IMG/VR virus record: IMGVR_UViG_3300025889_000636
Location: 1-30,018 of that record
Direction: 5' to 3' (one strand)
Length of the DNA stretch: 30,018 bases
From: a virus
In this document: in pieces, positions 3 to 30,018 of the stretch
Position numbering within the stretch: the stretch's first letter is position 1
How the letters are laid out: every line of letters begins with the position of its first letter
The notes under the pieces: model-generated
Told to the model about the DNA's origin: nothing
What the model saw: only the letters and a program-made list of their open reading frames with translations
Databases searched by the model: none
Made by a program: the position numbers and the translations under genes

Positions 3-128
3 AGAAAGGGGGTTAATATAAGGACAGGTTTTACACCCGAGAATATTACAATATTGTAATAGTCGTTCCTAAAAGTGATTCGTTCATAAGGTAAGCCCCG
101 TTTCCAGAACGCCACTCAATACTGATTG
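3..128. repeat. Left copy of the 126-bp terminal overlap
   Basis: Bases 3-128 are identical to 29893-30018; one step further out, base 2 (g) differs from base 29892 (a). The repeat covers one arm of the late terminator and the 3' end of the putative tail tube gene. Such an overlap is expected when a circular or circularly permuted genome is written as one linear contig, giving a unique length near 29,890 bp. A true short direct terminal repeat cannot be excluded from sequence alone. Confidence 0.9.
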
Positions 129-570
129 AAAGTCCATTTAAGTCACCTAACGCAACACCAACGGATGCCTCAGCTGAACTCGAACGCCCAGCACTTTCAA
201 CACCAAGAAAATAGAAATCTCCGTTGTTAGATTTCGCCACAGCGAATAACGCTGAACGTCCTAACTCAATCATTCTGTTTCTAACGTTACAATCCAAACC
301 AATAAGTTTTAGTGATAAGATTGATGAGTACCATACCGTGCCATTCTCACGTGAAAAATTTCCCGTTTGGACTAATCCCGCATGTTCGATATCTTGTTCG
401 AAATAGTATACTTCTAATGGGGCAGCTGTTGTTATACCTGTTATTGTACCGCATGAATCTTGGGCTATTGATGTAATAGATTCCCATTCACCAATATAAA
501 CCTTCTCCAAACCTCCAATTACGCTACAACCTAAATTATACCCGCCTTGCAAATTACATAAAAAAGACAT
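46..570 (-). CDS. Putative major tail (tail tube) protein
   Basis: A 174-residue soluble protein and the last gene of the long minus-strand late unit, directly after the major capsid gene. It has no signal peptide or membrane segment and is rich in Gly, Ser and beta-forming residues. A C-terminal stretch (about residues 120-165, with SAEASVGVALGDLNGLSISI) resembles the strand pattern of tail tube or major virion proteins in Bacteroidota phages. The start at 570 follows an AT-rich leader typical of this genome. A terminator-like hairpin separates it from the capsid gene, so its expression may be set separately. Tail tube is inferred from position, size and composition; another virion protein, such as a head decoration protein, is possible. 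Its 3' end is repeated at the right edge of the window. Confidence 0.45.
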   Translation of the reverse strand: MSFLCNLQGGYNLGCSVIGGLEKVYIGEWESITSIAQDSCGTITGITTAAPLEVYYFEQDIEHAGLVQTGNFSRENGTVWYSSILSLKLIGLDCNVRNRMIELGRSALFAVAKSNNGDFYFLGVESAGRSSSAEASVGVALGDLNGLSISIEWRSGNGAYLMNESLLGTTITIL

Positions 571-17697: not shown

Positions 17698-18900
17698 TTA
17701 ACTAAGAAATCTAATCACAGGTTTTACCCCTGCTGTTTTCCTTTGTCCTAACTTCATCATAGCAATATACCTCATCGCATCAAGTGAATGATTATAAGCA
17801 TCAACAGGTTCTTTTTCATACCCCCCGTCCCTGTTTTTCTTATACATATACTTTTGTAGTTCCTCTATTATGTTAGTACTTTTTCGTGTAACGTATAGTT
17901 TATGTTGTTGAATAATCTGTATACCATAACTGATACTATCACGTCCCTTTTCAACAGGTTTGATATTGAACCCATATTTCTTTATTTCAGCAATACTCTT
18001 AGGTTCCGCGGAGTCGGCGTAGATTTCACCTTTAATACCTTCCTGTTTCATTATAGATGCTAATTCACTATTGAGTAATCCCTTTTGATATACTATTTCA
18101 TCAACTATTATACTATCATTATATTTGTATAATCCTACTAATGCTGCTTCATCTACACTATACCCAAAGTCAAGTCCATACCCAAGTAATCTGGCTTCAT
18201 CAGGTAATTTATCAATAACCTCGTAGTCGTTATAGATTGTACCTTCTATACTTCCTACCTCACCTAATAAGTAAACTCGGCACCAGTTTTCCCAGTAGGT
18301 TGATGTCTTGGCTTTTTCCCAATTCTGTTCCAACATTTTTATTACCTCAAGGGCTAAGGCTTCGTTGTCCTTATATGTTAGTATGATAAATTCAGTATCA
18401 GGTTGTCCTATTAGTTCGTTGTTAACCCAAAACTTTTGTGATGGGTTATAATCCAAATAGATGTCCCCACTTGTACGAATTGCTAATTGGAGGTATGCTT
18501 CATAGTTGATGTTGTTACACTCGTTAACATATAAAATCTGGCGTCGTCCGCCACGGAGTTTCTCCTCGCTGTCCGCACTAAAAAACTCCATATAAGAACC
18601 ATTACTGAATGTATAACGTAATAAACTCTTATTGTAGTTATTGGGTATAAATCTACCCGTCTCCTTCATAATCTTTAAGAAATCCTTGTTGGCACCACGT
18701 CTAAGGTGGGGTATAGATTCACTTACAACACTCACTTCAAGGTTGGGTGTCTTTATACATTTGTCGATTAGTATAGCCAGAATTGAAAATGTTTTTGACG
18801 CACTCGTTCCACCTTGAATGATTTTAATTCGTTCCTTCATAGCCCTAATCTTTTTCAGGGCTGTTGTATAAACAAAACTACTCTGTGTCGTCGTCGTCAT
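17698..18900 (-). CDS. terL: Terminase large subunit
   Basis: The 400-residue packaging motor: an N-terminal ATPase and a C-terminal nuclease that cuts concatemeric DNA. The Walker A motif is GGTSASKT (30-37), a Walker B-like motif is ILYVNE (122-127), and a coupling region follows around residues 150-180. Nuclease acidic residues are visible at D244 (YGLDFGYS), D296 (YADSAEP) and D374 (YNHSLDAMRY). This set is characteristic of the Terminase_3 (PBSX/SPP1-like) family, whose members generally package by a headful mechanism. It overlaps terS by 23 bases. The length is in the usual range. Confidence 0.95.
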   Translation of the reverse strand: MTTTTQSSFVYTTALKKIRAMKERIKIIQGGTSASKTFSILAILIDKCIKTPNLEVSVVSESIPHLRRGANKDFLKIMKETGRFIPNNYNKSLLRYTFSNGSYMEFFSADSEEKLRGGRRQILYVNECNNINYEAYLQLAIRTSGDIYLDYNPSQKFWVNNELIGQPDTEFIILTYKDNEALALEVIKMLEQNWEKAKTSTYWENWCRVYLLGEVGSIEGTIYNDYEVIDKLPDEARLLGYGLDFGYSVDEAALVGLYKYNDSIIVDEIVYQKGLLNSELASIMKQEGIKGEIYADSAEPKSIAEIKKYGFNIKPVEKGRDSISYGIQIIQQHKLYVTRKSTNIIEELQKYMYKKNRDGGYEKEPVDAYNHSLDAMRYIAMMKLGQRKTAGVKPVIRFLS

Positions 18901-19228
18901 CTAAGAATAATGGTTGTTCTAATGTTAGATTAGCATTTATGTTTAGTTCATCAGTATAACCTCTTTTACGGGCTTTATATTTCATATAAAATAATATACT
19001 ACGTTCACTACCCTCCCTGATTTTTCTAAATAGTTGATTCTCTGCGAAGTCTAATGTGATTTCATTTATTTCCTCCACCTTGTTTCTAAAATCCTCATCC
19101 TCGTTGTAGTACCTATAATAAGTATCACGTGATATACCTAACTCTCTACATGCGGGGGTTACTAATCCTAAGTGTCGTTCTAAGGCTTCTAATAGTTTCT
19201 TTTTATAATACGTTGGACGTTGTTTCAT
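18878..19228 (-). CDS. terS: Terminase small subunit
   Basis: A 116-residue protein that would recognise the packaging site and load TerL. A helix-turn-helix lies at about residues 20-42 (LGLVTPACRELGISRDTYYR), followed by a helical oligomerisation region (VEEINEITLDFAENQLFRKI) and a very acidic end (FLDDDDDTE). This layout is common in TerS proteins whose N-terminal HTH binds DNA and whose C-terminus contacts the motor. It overlaps TerL by 23 bases and the upstream methyltransferase by 26 bases. A 12-bp palindrome inside the gene (19123-19134) might mark the packaging site. Confidence 0.85.
   Translation of the reverse strand: MKQRPTYYKKKLLEALERHLGLVTPACRELGISRDTYYRYYNEDEDFRNKVEEINEITLDFAENQLFRKIREGSERSILFYMKYKARKRGYTDELNINANLTLEQPLFLDDDDDTE
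19123..19134. other. 12-bp palindrome in terS
   Basis: TATCACGTGATA is a perfect 12-bp palindrome inside the terminase small subunit gene. Packaging sites of headful phages often lie in or near terS, so it is a candidate recognition feature, but chance occurrence cannot be ruled out. Confidence 0.25.
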
Positions 19229-20060
19229 TTGTTATTGGGTATTTGTCGTTTATTTCAGGGATACCAGCCCTGATGAATTGATATAGTGTATTCATATGTA
19301 GTGTTGGGGTTGATATTGCCAGTTGTGATAATATGTTGGTTTCCTTATTATAAAAGTATAACCACTTTATAAAGTTGATAACTTTATTTCTAAACTCATC
19401 ATCATCAATTTTCATACCTACCACCAATACTTTTTCATATGGTTTAGCTTCCTTTAATAAGTCTCCCCACGCTACGAAAGAATAATCAAATGGTTTAAGT
19501 TTCTGTGTCTTTTGTTTTCTTGCTTTACGATACTCTATAAACTCAACACAGGGTATTGTATAATCTATTTCATCAAATCTGTCTTTATGTGGGTTTCTCT
19601 TATAAATAGTAAAAGATGTTTTTAGTTTGTGGTTCGTGTATGGGGTGTCTAATACGCAAGAATATATTATTTCAAATCTTTTGAATTCGTTATAGTTATA
19701 ATAAAAATTTGCTGGTTGGATGTATGCGATATAATCACCATTATCACAGGCTTTATTATAAAACATTTTTATAAGTCCCCCATCTTTTTCCCCAAACGGC
19801 GGGTTACCGATAAAACACCTACCCTCTTTATAACCACCTAAATCTAATGTTGAAAAGTCTGCTTGTTCTATGTAGTCGTGTTGGGGGTATAAATCATAAG
19901 CCCTACAACCTGGTAGTTGATGACTGAAGGAACCTGAACCAGCGCTGGGTTCTACCCACTCTGTTATGTTTTCCTCACCGATGATTTCCTTAGTTTTTTC
20001 TATACACCATCTTGCTACTATGGGTGAGGTGTAGTATTTATCAAAAGGTATTTTTGCCAT
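19203..20060 (-). CDS. DNA adenine methyltransferase, gamma-like order
   Basis: A 285-residue methyltransferase. SAM-binding motif I is EPSAGSGSF (37-45), and the catalytic motif IV is GNPPFG (85-90), an NPPF form that favours N6-adenine methylation. Motif I before motif IV is the gamma-type order. A further segment (DGGLIKMFYN, YIAYIQPANFYY) continues the catalytic fold; the C-terminal third is without clear motifs and may recognise the target. The 5' end overlaps the ParB-like gene by 20 bases and the 3' end overlaps terS by 26 bases. No partner restriction enzyme is present, so it probably protects phage DNA from host restriction. Confidence 0.8.
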   Translation of the reverse strand: MAKIPFDKYYTSPIVARWCIEKTKEIIGEENITEWVEPSAGSGSFSHQLPGCRAYDLYPQHDYIEQADFSTLDLGGYKEGRCFIGNPPFGEKDGGLIKMFYNKACDNGDYIAYIQPANFYYNYNEFKRFEIIYSCVLDTPYTNHKLKTSFTIYKRNPHKDRFDEIDYTIPCVEFIEYRKARKQKTQKLKPFDYSFVAWGDLLKEAKPYEKVLVVGMKIDDDEFRNKVINFIKWLYFYNKETNILSQLAISTPTLHMNTLYQFIRAGIPEINDKYPITNETTSNVL

Positions 20061-20652
20061 ATTGGAGTATAAGTTTTTTTATTTCTTTTACGAATTGTTC
20101 GTTGTTCTCCAACTCCCTTAGGTTCCTAACTGCGTCCTTTATTTCATCATCCTCAAACTCAATCATATATTCATTTAGGAAAAATATGTTCTGTTTGATA
20201 TAATCATTTACGTCCAACACATCTACCTTTAAGTTCGCCTTGTTGATATTTTTTTCATACTCGTTTTCTTGGTGTCCGTATATTCCATATAATTCCCAAT
20301 CCTCAAATCCGTTGTCTAATACGAAGTTCTTGTCCCAATCACCAAGCGATACATAATCCCAATCACCGAAGGACTGATTGTCTTTTAGTATAAATTGTTT
20401 TTGTTGTTCCTCAGTTAGATTGTCCGCCTTTATAATATACACCTCATCTAATCCTGCTTCTTTACAGGCTTTAAGTCTCATATTACCACCCAATACCACC
20501 ATATTATCATCTACGACTATTGGACGTATTTTTAACATTTGGGGGAACTCTTTTATACTCTTTACTAGTTGTTTGAACTTGGTGTCTCTAATCGTTCTTG
20601 GGTTGTCTTTATTTAGGTTGATTTCCCCTATTTTAACTAATTCTATATTCAT
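20041..20652 (-). CDS. ParB/Srx-fold (ParB N-terminal domain) protein
   Basis: A 203-residue protein with a ParB N-terminal nucleotide-binding domain: INLNKDNPRT (11-20) and VVLGGNMRLKACKEAG (52-67), where the GGNMR stretch replaces the GxRRxxA box of segregation ParBs. The C-terminal half is acidic and helical and has no visible helix-turn-helix, so it probably does not read parS itself. ParB-fold proteins of this type often sit beside phage DNA methyltransferases, as here on both sides, and may take part in DNA modification or nicking. The start at 20652 is the only sensible start. A canonical parS site at 29857-29872 makes the presence of this domain notable, although a direct link is unproven. 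Confidence 0.8.
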   Translation of the reverse strand: MNIELVKIGEINLNKDNPRTIRDTKFKQLVKSIKEFPQMLKIRPIVVDDNMVVLGGNMRLKACKEAGLDEVYIIKADNLTEEQQKQFILKDNQSFGDWDYVSLGDWDKNFVLDNGFEDWELYGIYGHQENEYEKNINKANLKVDVLDVNDYIKQNIFFLNEYMIEFEDDEIKDAVRNLRELENNEQFVKEIKKLILQYGKNTF

Positions 20653-24500: not shown

Positions 24501-24893
24501 ATGAAAACTAAATACATAAACATAGATGAAAGTTTGTTTGATGAAGGGTATAGTATTACTCAGGCATTACTTATTTCTTATTTGAAAAGATTTCAACAGA
24601 ATGGAAAATATTGTTATCAAACTAAAAAACAGATTGCTGACTTTTTTAATGTTAGTGAATCAACTATTAGACGTGAATTGAAGGACTTAGAGTCAAAAGG
24701 TATTATATTTACTTCAACGGAAAAGAAACATATACCAGTAACTTTTAATAACAGGAAGGCTATTGTTTATGTTGATAAAAAAAATAAGATTATTGAACCC
24801 ATTAAAATCTCTAATGTATATGTAGATGAGGTTGATAAGGATTTAATAAGTTTAGGACTAAACCCAAAAGATTATTATGATGAACTACGTTGA
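24501..24893 (+). CDS. Winged-helix protein, putative replication initiator
   Basis: A 130-residue protein with an N-terminal winged helix-turn-helix of the HTH_36 type at about residues 16-72 (SITQALLISYLKRFQQNGKY, then TKKQIADFFNVSESTIRREL). The recognition helix is SESTIRRELKDLESKG (about 52-67), and the wing includes IIFTSTEKKHIPVTF. The C-terminal 40 residues are charged and may bind a partner. The 13-mers end one base before its start, and the iterons lie just upstream, as for plasmid Rep genes. It is much shorter than classical Rep proteins, so it may be an initiator, an autoregulator or a loader. Its stop overlaps the next start. Confidence 0.65.
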   Translation: MKTKYINIDESLFDEGYSITQALLISYLKRFQQNGKYCYQTKKQIADFFNVSESTIRRELKDLESKGIIFTSTEKKHIPVTFNNRKAIVYVDKKNKIIEPIKISNVYVDEVDKDLISLGLNPKDYYDELR

Positions 24894-25530
24894 ATTGGAA
24901 AAATATTTACGACAGCTTTTTCAGCAGTACCTAAATAAGTTTAATTTATCAGTTGAGGATAAAGATGATGTAATACAAAATACTATGATAAAATTATTCA
25001 CAAAAGAAAAAGATGGAACTTTAACTGGTGATGTTGAAAATAATAAAAATTATATATTCATTACTTTAAGAAATTATGTATTTCAACAAGGAACCAGTAA
25101 ATTTAAAATACATACAACAATAGAGGGTTATGATGTACCTTCAACGGAAAAGAGTATAATTGATTTAATGGACACTGAAATCAAAATTAAAGCAATCAAT
25201 AAGAAGATGGAGAAAAAGTCCTTCAACGACAAGGAAAGATTGATTTGGAGTTATTTATGTAAGGGGTACAAGCTTGTAGAAATAGAAAAAGAGATTGATA
25301 TGTCCTTAAGTGCCATTAGGGTAAATTGGCAACAAATGAAAAAAAAGATGAGAGGACAAGTTTACTCAAAACCAAAGTATTTATTAGAATACCATACTTC
25401 TGGCAAAAAACTTTATTTCCTTAATCAAAAAGAATTATTGGAATATACCAAGATTTCACCAGACACTTGGGACACATATAAAAAACTTGGAAAAACAATT
25501 TTCCCTAAATACAAAATACAAAAACTATGA
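24877..25530 (+). CDS. Sigma-70 (ECF-like) protein with C-terminal NUMOD-like tail
   Basis: A 217-residue protein with a sigma region 2-like segment (about 5-70: LFQQYLNKFNLSVEDKDDVI, then NYIFITLRNYVFQQ) and a region 4-like HTH (about 112-160: FNDKERLIWSYLCKGYKLVE, then IEKEIDMSLSAIRVNWQQM). After residue 165 an extra domain (KYLLEYHTSGKKLYFLNQKE, then LLEYTKISPDTWDTYKK) resembles NUMOD1-type DNA-binding modules. It may direct host RNA polymerase to phage promoters. It overlaps both neighbours (17 bases upstream, 4 bases downstream). Confidence 0.65.
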   Translation: MMNYVELEKYLRQLFQQYLNKFNLSVEDKDDVIQNTMIKLFTKEKDGTLTGDVENNKNYIFITLRNYVFQQGTSKFKIHTTIEGYDVPSTEKSIIDLMDTEIKIKAINKKMEKKSFNDKERLIWSYLCKGYKLVEIEKEIDMSLSAIRVNWQQMKKKMRGQVYSKPKYLLEYHTSGKKLYFLNQKELLEYTKISPDTWDTYKKLGKTIFPKYKIQKL

Positions 25531-28785: not shown

Positions 28786-28817
28786 TTTGGTATATTGAAA
28801 TAAAGTACTTATATTTG
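28786..28817 (+). promoter_or_regulatory. Promoter 1 of the right plus-strand cassette
   Basis: TTTG (28786-28789), a 20-base spacer and TATATTTG (28810-28817) give a complete Bacteroidota promoter. Two bases later the 34-bp leader shared with the next gene begins. Confidence 0.8.
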
Positions 28818-28819
28818 TT

Positions 28820-28853
28820 ATATAATAATTCACCTAATAAAACAAATACAAAT
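28820..28853 (+). repeat. 34-bp leader repeat, copy 1
   Basis: A 34-base block, starting ATATAATAATTCACC and ending in ACAAATACAAAT, lies directly before the start codon at 28854. It is identical to 29274-29307, where it lies just before the next gene. It has no ordinary Shine-Dalgarno site and probably serves as the untranslated leader. Confidence 0.9.
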
Positions 28854-29258
28854 ATGATACTAGACAAGAAATTACACGCATGGCAGATTAAGATGGGTAA
28901 AATGTCTGTTGATTTTATGATTTCCCCATTTTACAAATACCTTATGGAAACTTATGACTTACAACCTAACGTATGGTTTATGAATGAAAGTGAGGAATAT
29001 ACCGTACCAGCAGTCAACATATCAATTTCTATTGGGGACGTTCATTTTTCTTTTACCAAGTTTTTTGCTAATGATGAAGGTGATAATTATATTATGTTGT
29101 CTTGTAATTGTTATAAATTAAATGACTATCAGTTCGAGGACTTTTGTAATGTAAAACACTTCCGTTTAGATGATATTGAAACTTTCATTATGATGGAAAT
29201 GGCTGATATTGACGAATTGAAAAAAAATAATGAAAAAGATTTGGCAGAAACAAAATAA
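28854..29258 (+). CDS. Hypothetical protein A of the right plus cassette
   Basis: A 134-residue protein starting MILDKKLHAWQIKMGKMSVD. It appears soluble and acidic, with a beta-rich middle (VPAVNISISIGDVHFSFTKF) and a helical, Lys/Glu-rich end (DIDELKKNNEKDLAETK). The ATG at 28854 is chosen because the whole leader repeat lies upstream; a TTG further upstream would start inside that leader. It is driven by promoter 1 and transcribed away from the portal operon. It may be an early host-takeover or anti-defence gene, judging by small size and own promoter, but this is a guess. Confidence 0.6.
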   Translation: MILDKKLHAWQIKMGKMSVDFMISPFYKYLMETYDLQPNVWFMNESEEYTVPAVNISISIGDVHFSFTKFFANDEGDNYIMLSCNCYKLNDYQFEDFCNVKHFRLDDIETFIMMEMADIDELKKNNEKDLAETK

Positions 29259-29271
29259 ATCCCTAACTTTA
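29240..29271 (+). promoter_or_regulatory. Promoter 2 of the right plus-strand cassette
   Basis: TTTG (29240-29243), a 20-base spacer and TAACTTTA (29264-29271) align in register with promoter 1, with the same spacing to the leader repeat. The downstream box is weaker (final A instead of G). The upstream box lies within the end of the preceding gene. Confidence 0.65.
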
Positions 29272-29273
29272 CC

Positions 29274-29307
29274 ATATAATAATTCACCTAATAAAACAAA
29301 TACAAAT
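29274..29307 (+). repeat. 34-bp leader repeat, copy 2
   Basis: Identical to 28820-28853. Here the leader runs 2 bases into the ATG at 29306. The two copies share promoter spacing and start position, pointing to a duplicated promoter-leader unit. Confidence 0.9.
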
Positions 29308-29539
29308 GAAAACAATTATCGTATTAGATTACCCACAAACTTTCGGGTTCAAAGTTAGAAAAGAACTACCAACCTTTAATGGTGAGTATTGTGAGGTTAG
29401 AAATGAAATCTTACTTCGTCAATTAAGACGACAAAAAATCTACTCACCATGCCACCTCTATACTGACTATGTTGTTGGTATTGTTGAACCATTTGATAAT
29501 GGGACTACATCAGGTGAAGTATGGCATTTATTCTCTTAA
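29306..29539 (+). CDS. Hypothetical protein B of the right plus cassette
   Basis: A 77-residue protein (MKTIIVLDYPQTFGFKVRKE) with an N-terminal beta strand and a basic middle (NEILLRQLRRQKIYSPCHLY). It has its own promoter and leader. It resembles no family I can name; the small size, basic middle and cassette location suggest a DNA- or protein-binding accessory role. Confidence 0.55.
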   Translation: MKTIIVLDYPQTFGFKVRKELPTFNGEYCEVRNEILLRQLRRQKIYSPCHLYTDYVVGIVEPFDNGTTSGEVWHLFS

Positions 29540-29552
29540 AAACTTAAACAAA

Positions 29553-29855
29553 ATGTACTATATGAAAACGACTATCGAACTTTTACTAGCACTCAACGAC
29601 ATCAATCCTGATACCCTAACCATTACCGAAGGTAAAAACTTTGAAGGGGGTTCATCAACCCGTATTTCTAATGATAGATGGAGTATTGTTGTTAATAACT
29701 TTGAACCAAATACTTATGGTGTGGTTCGTATTACAACCATCGGTATTAAGGACAACACTACTGATATGTGGACTGGTTATGACTATTTGGGTAAAACAGA
29801 CACGGGTGATTACTTGGGTGAGTTACTAAAACTATTCAATCAATACTTTAAATAA
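29553..29855 (+). CDS. Hypothetical protein C of the right plus cassette
   Basis: A 100-residue protein (MYYMKTTIELLLALNDINPD) with a helical start, a beta-rich middle with Gly and Trp (WSIVVNNFEPNTYGVVRITT) and a helical end. ATG codons at 29553 and 29562 are both possible; the first is used. No separate promoter is visible, so it is probably co-transcribed with gene B. The stop lies 1 base before the parS-like site. Confidence 0.55.
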   Translation: MYYMKTTIELLLALNDINPDTLTITEGKNFEGGSSTRISNDRWSIVVNNFEPNTYGVVRITTIGIKDNTTDMWTGYDYLGKTDTGDYLGELLKLFNQYFK

Positions 29856-29856
29856 T

Positions 29857-29872
29857 TGTTTCACGTGGAACA
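29857..29872. promoter_or_regulatory. Canonical parS site (ParB/Spo0J binding site)
   Basis: TGTTTCACGTGGAACA is the exact reverse complement of the well-known chromosomal parS 16-mer TGTTCCACGTGAAACA. It has the CACGTG core and both TGTT/AACA arms. It lies in a noncoding stretch between the end of gene C and the late terminator, near the circular junction. Random occurrence of a defined 16-mer in 30 kb is very unlikely. It would be bound by a host ParB and not obviously by the phage ParB-like protein. Confidence 0.9.
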
Positions 29873-29873
29873 T

Positions 29874-29904
29874 AAAAAAACCCCCAATCATAAGAAAGGG
29901 GGTT
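29874..29904 (-). terminator. Terminator of the long minus-strand late unit
   Basis: AACCCCC (29879-29885) pairs with GGGGGTT (29898-29904). On the minus strand the stem is followed by seven T residues (29880-29874). In the circle it lies about 40 bases after the end of the last late gene and also faces the plus-strand cassette. Confidence 0.85.
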
Positions 29905-30018
29905 AATATAAGGACAGGTTTTACACCCGAGAATATTACAATATTGTAATAGTCGTTCCTAAAAGTGATTCGTTCATAAGGTAAGCCCCGTTTCCAGAAC
30001 GCCACTCAATACTGATTG
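29893..30018. repeat. Right copy of the 126-bp terminal overlap
   Basis: Identical to bases 3-128; base 29892 differs from base 2. It marks where the linear record closes on itself. Confidence 0.9.
29936..30018 (-). CDS. 3' fragment of the tail tube gene, repeated by the overlap
   Basis: The last 27 codons and stop of the gene at 46-570, seen a second time only because the record overlaps itself. It is not a separate gene. The fragment has no start in the window. Confidence 0.85.
   Translation of the reverse strand, partial: ISIEWRSGNGAYLMNESLLGTTITIL

Follow-up and report, generated by a model that had tools for sequence, protein, structure and literature searches.

A chromosomal-type parS site on a tailed phage genome as a candidate mimic of the host centromere

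Results

A parS site of host type in the window phage

The IMG/VR record IMGVR_UViG_3300025889_000636, whose whole stretch of 30,018 bases is the window analysed here (hereafter, the window phage), was found to carry TGTTTCACGTGGAACA at positions 29857-29872, an exact match to the parS 16-mer of Bacteroidota chromosomes. Judged by sequence, it is an authentic parS of the type found on chromosomes of the host group. The explanation that we favour, with a probability somewhat above even, is that the site is a genuine mimic of the host centromere, which would be loaded by the host ParB and would link the phage genome, circular and non-integrating, with the ParABS/SMC machinery of the host. The features of the window on which the analysis relies were the following:

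3..128, no strand: 126-bp direct terminal repeat, copy 1, closing the record
46..570, minus strand: 174-aa protein, the conserved neighbour across the terminator (34 relatives, 64-71% identity)
17698..18900, minus strand: TerL, used for placing the phage (phrog_5653, 3.7e-36)
20041..20652, minus strand: ParB_N-domain protein, 203 aa (PF02195, residues 2-83)
24501..24893, plus strand: HTH_36 / replication-initiation-like protein, candidate initiator (phrog_428, 5.6e-12; PF13730)
28815..29258, plus strand: 147-aa ORFan starting at TTG, first gene of the private convergent stretch
29306..29539, plus strand: 77-aa ORFan, second gene of the private stretch
29553..29855, plus strand: third ORFan of the private stretch, 100 aa, with a longer reading from 29469 (stop 1 nt before parS)
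29857..29872, no strand: parS-like 16-mer, exact, unique in the window and equal to the Bacteroidota chromosomal parS
29873..29904, minus strand: intrinsic-terminator-like hairpin AACCCCC...GGGGGTT with a T-run, abutting parS (from the fold and from relatives)
29893..30018, no strand: 126-bp direct terminal repeat, copy 2, identical to 3-128, closing the record

On the minus strand the 16-mer reads TGTTCCACGTGAAACA, and the pattern TGTTYCACGTGRAACA was matched on both strands, with a single position departing from the perfect palindrome TGTTTCACGTGAAACA. The chance expectation for sites of this type in the window was 3.2e-5 (dinucleotide model), and no second parS site was found when the whole window was scanned with up to three mismatches allowed. 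The first-pass annotation had described a classical chromosomal-type parS 16-mer here, in noncoding DNA beside the circular junction, and both points were confirmed, the match being exact, the site intergenic and the record closed by the 126-bp direct repeat. In particular, the site begins 1 nt past the stop codon of the plus-strand reading frame ending at 29855, within a non-coding gap between convergent genes and immediately behind a terminator of the minus strand, and belongs to the intergenic fraction that accounts for about 5.7% of the genome in our gene set.

The minus-strand fold of positions 29850-29912 reached -18.5 kcal/mol (z = -4.0), corresponding to the terminator hairpin, which was not among the matches of a simple pattern scan for terminators. 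This hairpin and its T-run would end minus-strand transcription coming from the gene at 46-570. Scans with Rfam and for tRNAs were empty. The two terminal-repeat copies differ at their inner edge (1-3 and 29886-29893), within the terminator hairpin, and the bases of the circular junction are accordingly uncertain. We regard it as very improbable that the palindrome serves some other reader, for example a regulator of phage or host origin, or acts as a packaging signal or as an RNA hairpin that lengthens the terminator. The site does abut the terminator and folds as an RNA hairpin, but no T-run follows the parS hairpin, more than 30 relatives have the terminator without the 16-mer, and the sequence equals the host parS down to the tolerated C/T variation.

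The host group and its ParB

Relatives of the window-phage TerL were found on contigs of Arachidicoccus, Niabella and Chishuiella, of Bacteroidetes MAGs and of one MAG labelled Sulfurovum, and its best isolate matches were Flavobacterium phages. The host phylum is therefore placed with good confidence as Bacteroidota. Exact parS was present in five out of six bacterial genomes holding TerL relatives (2-5 sites, always on one contig), while the reversed control pattern had no match. The chromosomal parS of Niabella and Chishuiella was the very 16-mer of the window phage, and at the Chishuiella locus that was read it adjoins mnmG, right after a hairpin. Moreover, TGTTYCACGTGRAACA occurred in 53 out of 60 genomes of the Weeksellaceae, the family of Chishuiella, with one or two sites per genome (control, 0), paired sites lying typically about 1.9 kb apart. 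Across the Flavobacteriales it was found in 42 of 99 genomes (1-3 sites; control, 0), many of the others being small or partial genomes.

One ParA-ParB pair was present in each of five Bacteroidota genomes holding TerL relatives, and the ParBs of the host group were canonical, keeping the LG[RK]G(L/I) ParA-binding motif, the GERR box and the HTH. Furthermore, in the Chishuiella protein the positions named R173 and G201 are occupied by Arg and Gly (by our reading of the alignment), two residues reported as conserved in ParB (PMC7383237). As far as can be judged from these proteins, the canonical HTH and the specificity residues permit binding of the window-phage site, and the ParB of the true host is likely to bind it.

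Partition, replication and lysogeny genes of the window phage

The window phage is a tailed phage, as indicated by its TerL, portal and tail genes. A search of the whole 30-kb record for PF13614 gave no ParA match, which bears out the earlier claim that the phage has none; neither a tyrosine integrase nor a repressor was identified in the window. The protein at 20041-20652 had been described as having a ParB fold but no visible HTH for reading parS, and this description stood in part. The resemblance to ParB is confined to the N-terminal ~105 residues (PDB ParB structures match residues 8-105 only), and the TIGR00180 score of 25.7 bits is below the cut-off of 58.45; on the other hand, the AlphaFold2 model built from a six-relative alignment (mean pLDDT 59) is too poor to rule out an atypical DNA-binding region. 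It is likely that the protein is devoid of a DNA-reading domain. This protein was also considered as the reader of the window-phage parS and was set aside as probably not that, its N-terminal domain alone matching ParB. Regarding a self-encoded ParABS of the phage-plasmid type, neither ParA nor a canonical ParB was found in the window phage.

The order of the ParB_N, methyltransferase-like and terminase small subunit-like genes (18878-20652) was shared with another contig (L500:3001-4767), and none of the three had homologues in any of the 130 TerL/MCP relatives; the trio has the appearance of a module transferred as a unit. That there is a single parS, about 5 kb away from the gene of the candidate initiator, counts against the favoured explanation. 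Beside this gene, the region 24877-25530 weakly resembled a family of phage sigma factors (phrog_1740, 6e-8). A life as an episome is at most suggested by the replication-initiator-like gene and the lack of an integrase.

Absence of the site from the family of the window phage

Exact parS was found in none of 130 related loci, collected by way of TerL, the 174-aa neighbour or the MCP (1.25 Mb, overlapping), nor at the same place in any of seven near-full-length relatives. Thus, the conservation across related phages to which the first-pass annotation had looked for support was not observed. In 33 relatives, the 174-aa gene was followed by the terminator, as in the window phage, and never by parS, with the sequence beyond varying between phages. 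The annotation had also held that absence of the 16-mer between conserved flanks would count against its reading, and on this point the outcome was mixed: the site is absent and the flank formed by the 174-aa gene and the terminator is kept, but the other flank is the private stretch of three genes. As one flank is conserved and the other private, the site was gained or lost together with its surroundings and was not scrambled in place. In a distant relative (L090; MCP 31%), the parS TGTTCCACGTGGAACA lies directly after a terminator, as in the window phage, and parS was found in none of the 79 loci of that family. No purifying selection is visible in this family, since parS is absent from both the 130 related loci and the 79 relatives of L090. 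This non-conservation speaks most strongly against parS having an established role in the family of the window phage. The sequence TGTTTCACGGGGAACA, present in three contigs (L004, L005 and L033), was examined as a relative of parS and rejected, as its CACGTG core is broken and the L004 copy lies inside a structural gene of 640 aa.

The three ORFans at 28815-29855, all lacking homologues in the 130 related loci, are convergent to the structural operon, and relatives have other small genes in this slot; from gene content, the slot, bounded by the 174-aa gene and the portal operon, reads as a cargo hotspot. A chance or neutral origin, in which the 16-mer is random or was brought by host DNA within the three-gene stretch and has no function, is in keeping with a site that is private to the window phage among 130 related loci, though we deem it rather unlikely. 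With 3e-5 sites expected per genome, a random match would be rare, and the private genes do not speak for host DNA: none had a family above noise in PHROGs or Pfam, and the last of them (29553..29855) had no homologue when searched against phage records.

Intergenic parS sites across IMG/VR

The question of chance was also approached at the scale of the database, where the parS pattern was found in at least 120 IMG/VR contigs. As controls, the CAGCTG-core palindrome was found in at least 120 contigs and the ACCGGT-core palindrome in 23 (complete IMG/VR scan), and sites were assigned as coding or intergenic from open reading frames, without a gene caller. Among the matches listed, 55 of the 147 parS sites were intergenic, compared to 4 of 120 for CAGCTG (the other 116 lying in reading frames) and 3 of 23 for ACCGGT, and Fisher tests of this intergenic excess gave P-values of 3e-13 and 0.02, respectively. 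Loci with multiple sites were also found for parS (17, vs. 0 of 120 for CAGCTG, among the matches listed). IMG/VR is big enough for some chance sites, as the coding matches suggest, which favours a functionless 16-mer; however, the controls, when scaled to the 87 coding parS sites, predict about 3 (CAGCTG) or 13 (ACCGGT) intergenic ones, against the 55 seen among the matches listed.

Five canonical parS sites were grouped within about 0.8-0.9 kb in each of two contigs (L099:2657-3444 and L152:10535-11462), upstream of a distant terL relative and with surrounding sequence common to both. Among 40 listed contigs with intergenic parS, many of them fragments, no ParB was detected with TIGR00180, and ParA was found in one. 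This full ParA match came from an 84-kb contig (L076, also G023) in which ParB was not found and parS lies directly after a terminator-like hairpin. ParB was also rare in the control contigs (1 of 40). Overall, this shows that viruses bearing parS generally bring no ParB of their own, and no difference from other viruses is thereby demonstrated. The difference in tyrosine integrases was weak (0 of the 40 listed intergenic-parS contigs vs. 4 of 40 controls).

Viral clades that keep parS in position

An all-against-all comparison revealed clades of contigs, 68-85% identical in DNA, with parS at homologous positions. In seven of these contigs (L074, L079, L105, L116, L119, L147 and L188), whose TerL proteins were 65-90% identical to the reference, the site lies 35-145 bp upstream of terL. 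In four others, 68-74% identical in DNA (L112:1059, L122:5333, L172:88 and L176:8005), it lies within a short ORF, where it is translated as V-[SP]-R-E-T, at a distance of 49-58 bp behind the portal gene in the contigs that allowed a measurement. In the clade alignments, parS appeared as an island amid divergent flanks; it should be noted that these contigs were picked for having parS, a choice that accounts in part for the identical 16-mer but not for the shared position.

The nearest isolates of the parS clades were the Pelagibacter phages HTVC023P/HTVC027P and their relatives. Relatives of HTVC023P/HTVC027P-like TerL or portal proteins accounted for 24 of the 120 listed parS contigs, vs. 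none of the 120 listed for CAGCTG and none of the 23 for ACCGGT. Exact parS was absent from the eight records of HTVC023P-like isolates, and a version with one mismatch, CGTTTCACGTGAAACA, was found in non-coding DNA of HTVC027P, a cultured pelagiphage (MN698241.1, 16412-16427). The position just upstream of terL makes a packaging role conceivable for the HTVC023P-like clade, which would fit a different reader of the palindrome, but the site of the window phage is ~11 kb from terL. We give an even chance to the wider proposal that viruses repeatedly resort to centromere mimicry, with unrelated phages that lack ParA and ParB carrying the chromosomal parS of their hosts and thereby having host ParB and SMC loaded onto them; the site would be fixed in some lineages, such as the HTVC023P/HTVC027P-like podoviruses, where it lies close to terL or to the portal gene, and acquired sporadically in others, for instance in the window phage.

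Discussion

In established ParB biology (PMC12704722 and PMC7333895), ParB is loaded onto DNA at parS, where it forms a clamp that depends on CTP, and it then spreads and brings in ParA and SMC. Given this loading, a parS on a phage genome should be sufficient to recruit the host ParB. In the proposed course of events, the host ParB would recognize the 16-mer upon infection, close as a CTP-dependent clamp at the phage parS and spread over the flanking phage DNA; the loaded ParB would then bring the host ParA, plus SMC where present, onto the phage genome, and the circular, non-integrating genome would become coupled to the segregation and positioning of the host chromosome. Through this coupling to the host ParABS, the phage would need no partition genes of its own. 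That the phage recruits the host ParB had already been suggested in the first-pass annotation, and the suggestion gains from the host-type parS, the canonical ParBs of the host group and a phage without ParA or canonical ParB, but it is not backed by conservation (0 of 130 loci).

The benefit to the phage may be segregation, positioning or disruption of the host, which the sequence cannot separate. By analogy, inheritance is favoured by SGI1, discussed below, and by chromosomal par operons with one parS, which stabilise unstable plasmids (PMC7022226), while interference is favoured by the finding that an extra parS carried on a plasmid can be toxic and harm the host (PMC5815017). In the latter case, the phage parS in multiple copies would act as a decoy, drawing ParB, ParA or SMC off the host origin and stalling chromosome segregation or division to the benefit of the phage, with ParB bound just as in the favoured explanation. 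Placing one strong parS on a low-copy plasmid cut the viability of Caulobacter ~1000-fold, and in the reasoning of the authors the plasmids take the place of the chromosome in segregation (PMC5815017). Moreover, a fifth of the listed parS contigs are podoviruses related to lytic isolates and the 40 listed contigs contained no tyrosine integrase, and inheritance makes less sense for phages of this kind. However, a single site per genome would be a weak sponge early in infection and some bacteria naturally have many parS sites, and we consider the decoy unlikely.

Regarding a centromere mimic tied to the host machinery, the window phage carries the parS of another replicon without a cognate ParA or canonical ParB, as would be expected from the sequence of a mobile element of this kind. 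The closest known system, by analogy, is SGI1, whose parS-like sites hijack the ParABS of IncC plasmids and stabilise SGI1 (PMC10954446). Both are mobile elements with centromere copies and without ParAB, SGI1 being partitioned by the ParABS of another replicon; however, SGI1 is not a phage and borrows from a helper plasmid, and its binding and stabilisation have been measured, whereas the window phage is known from sequence alone. The chromosomal ParABS of Bacteroidota (Spo0J/ParB-parS) has the same 16-mer, which in the window phage stands alone, on a phage and without parAB. Phage-plasmids such as P1, N15 and the actinophages with parABS (PMC11652158) resemble the window phage in having a centromere on a phage genome, but they bring partition proteins of their own together with a parS of their own, while the window phage has no ParA or canonical ParB. 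Finally, the Staphylococcus phage Lacachita (PMC10286716) and phages in a survey of the ParB-CTPase fold (PMC12704722) have, as here, a ParB_N protein, no ParA and no integrase; the excerpts available from both sources treat the protein and describe no host-type parS on a phage.

In the open-access literature, a scope that leaves out most subscription journals and bioRxiv, no description of host-type parS on phages was found. The occurrence of parS without ParB in viral contigs is a wider pattern, apparently undescribed, and of more interest than the single site of the window phage. Because the reader of this 16-mer is well understood, the idea can be tested in isolates and, by sequence, across viral collections. 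If true, a phage with only a centromere would have a cheaper route to inheritance, positioning or disturbance of the host, the principle known from SGI1 and plasmid ParB would extend to phages and chromosomal ParB, and the host ParB/SMC would become a candidate point of conflict between phages and their hosts.
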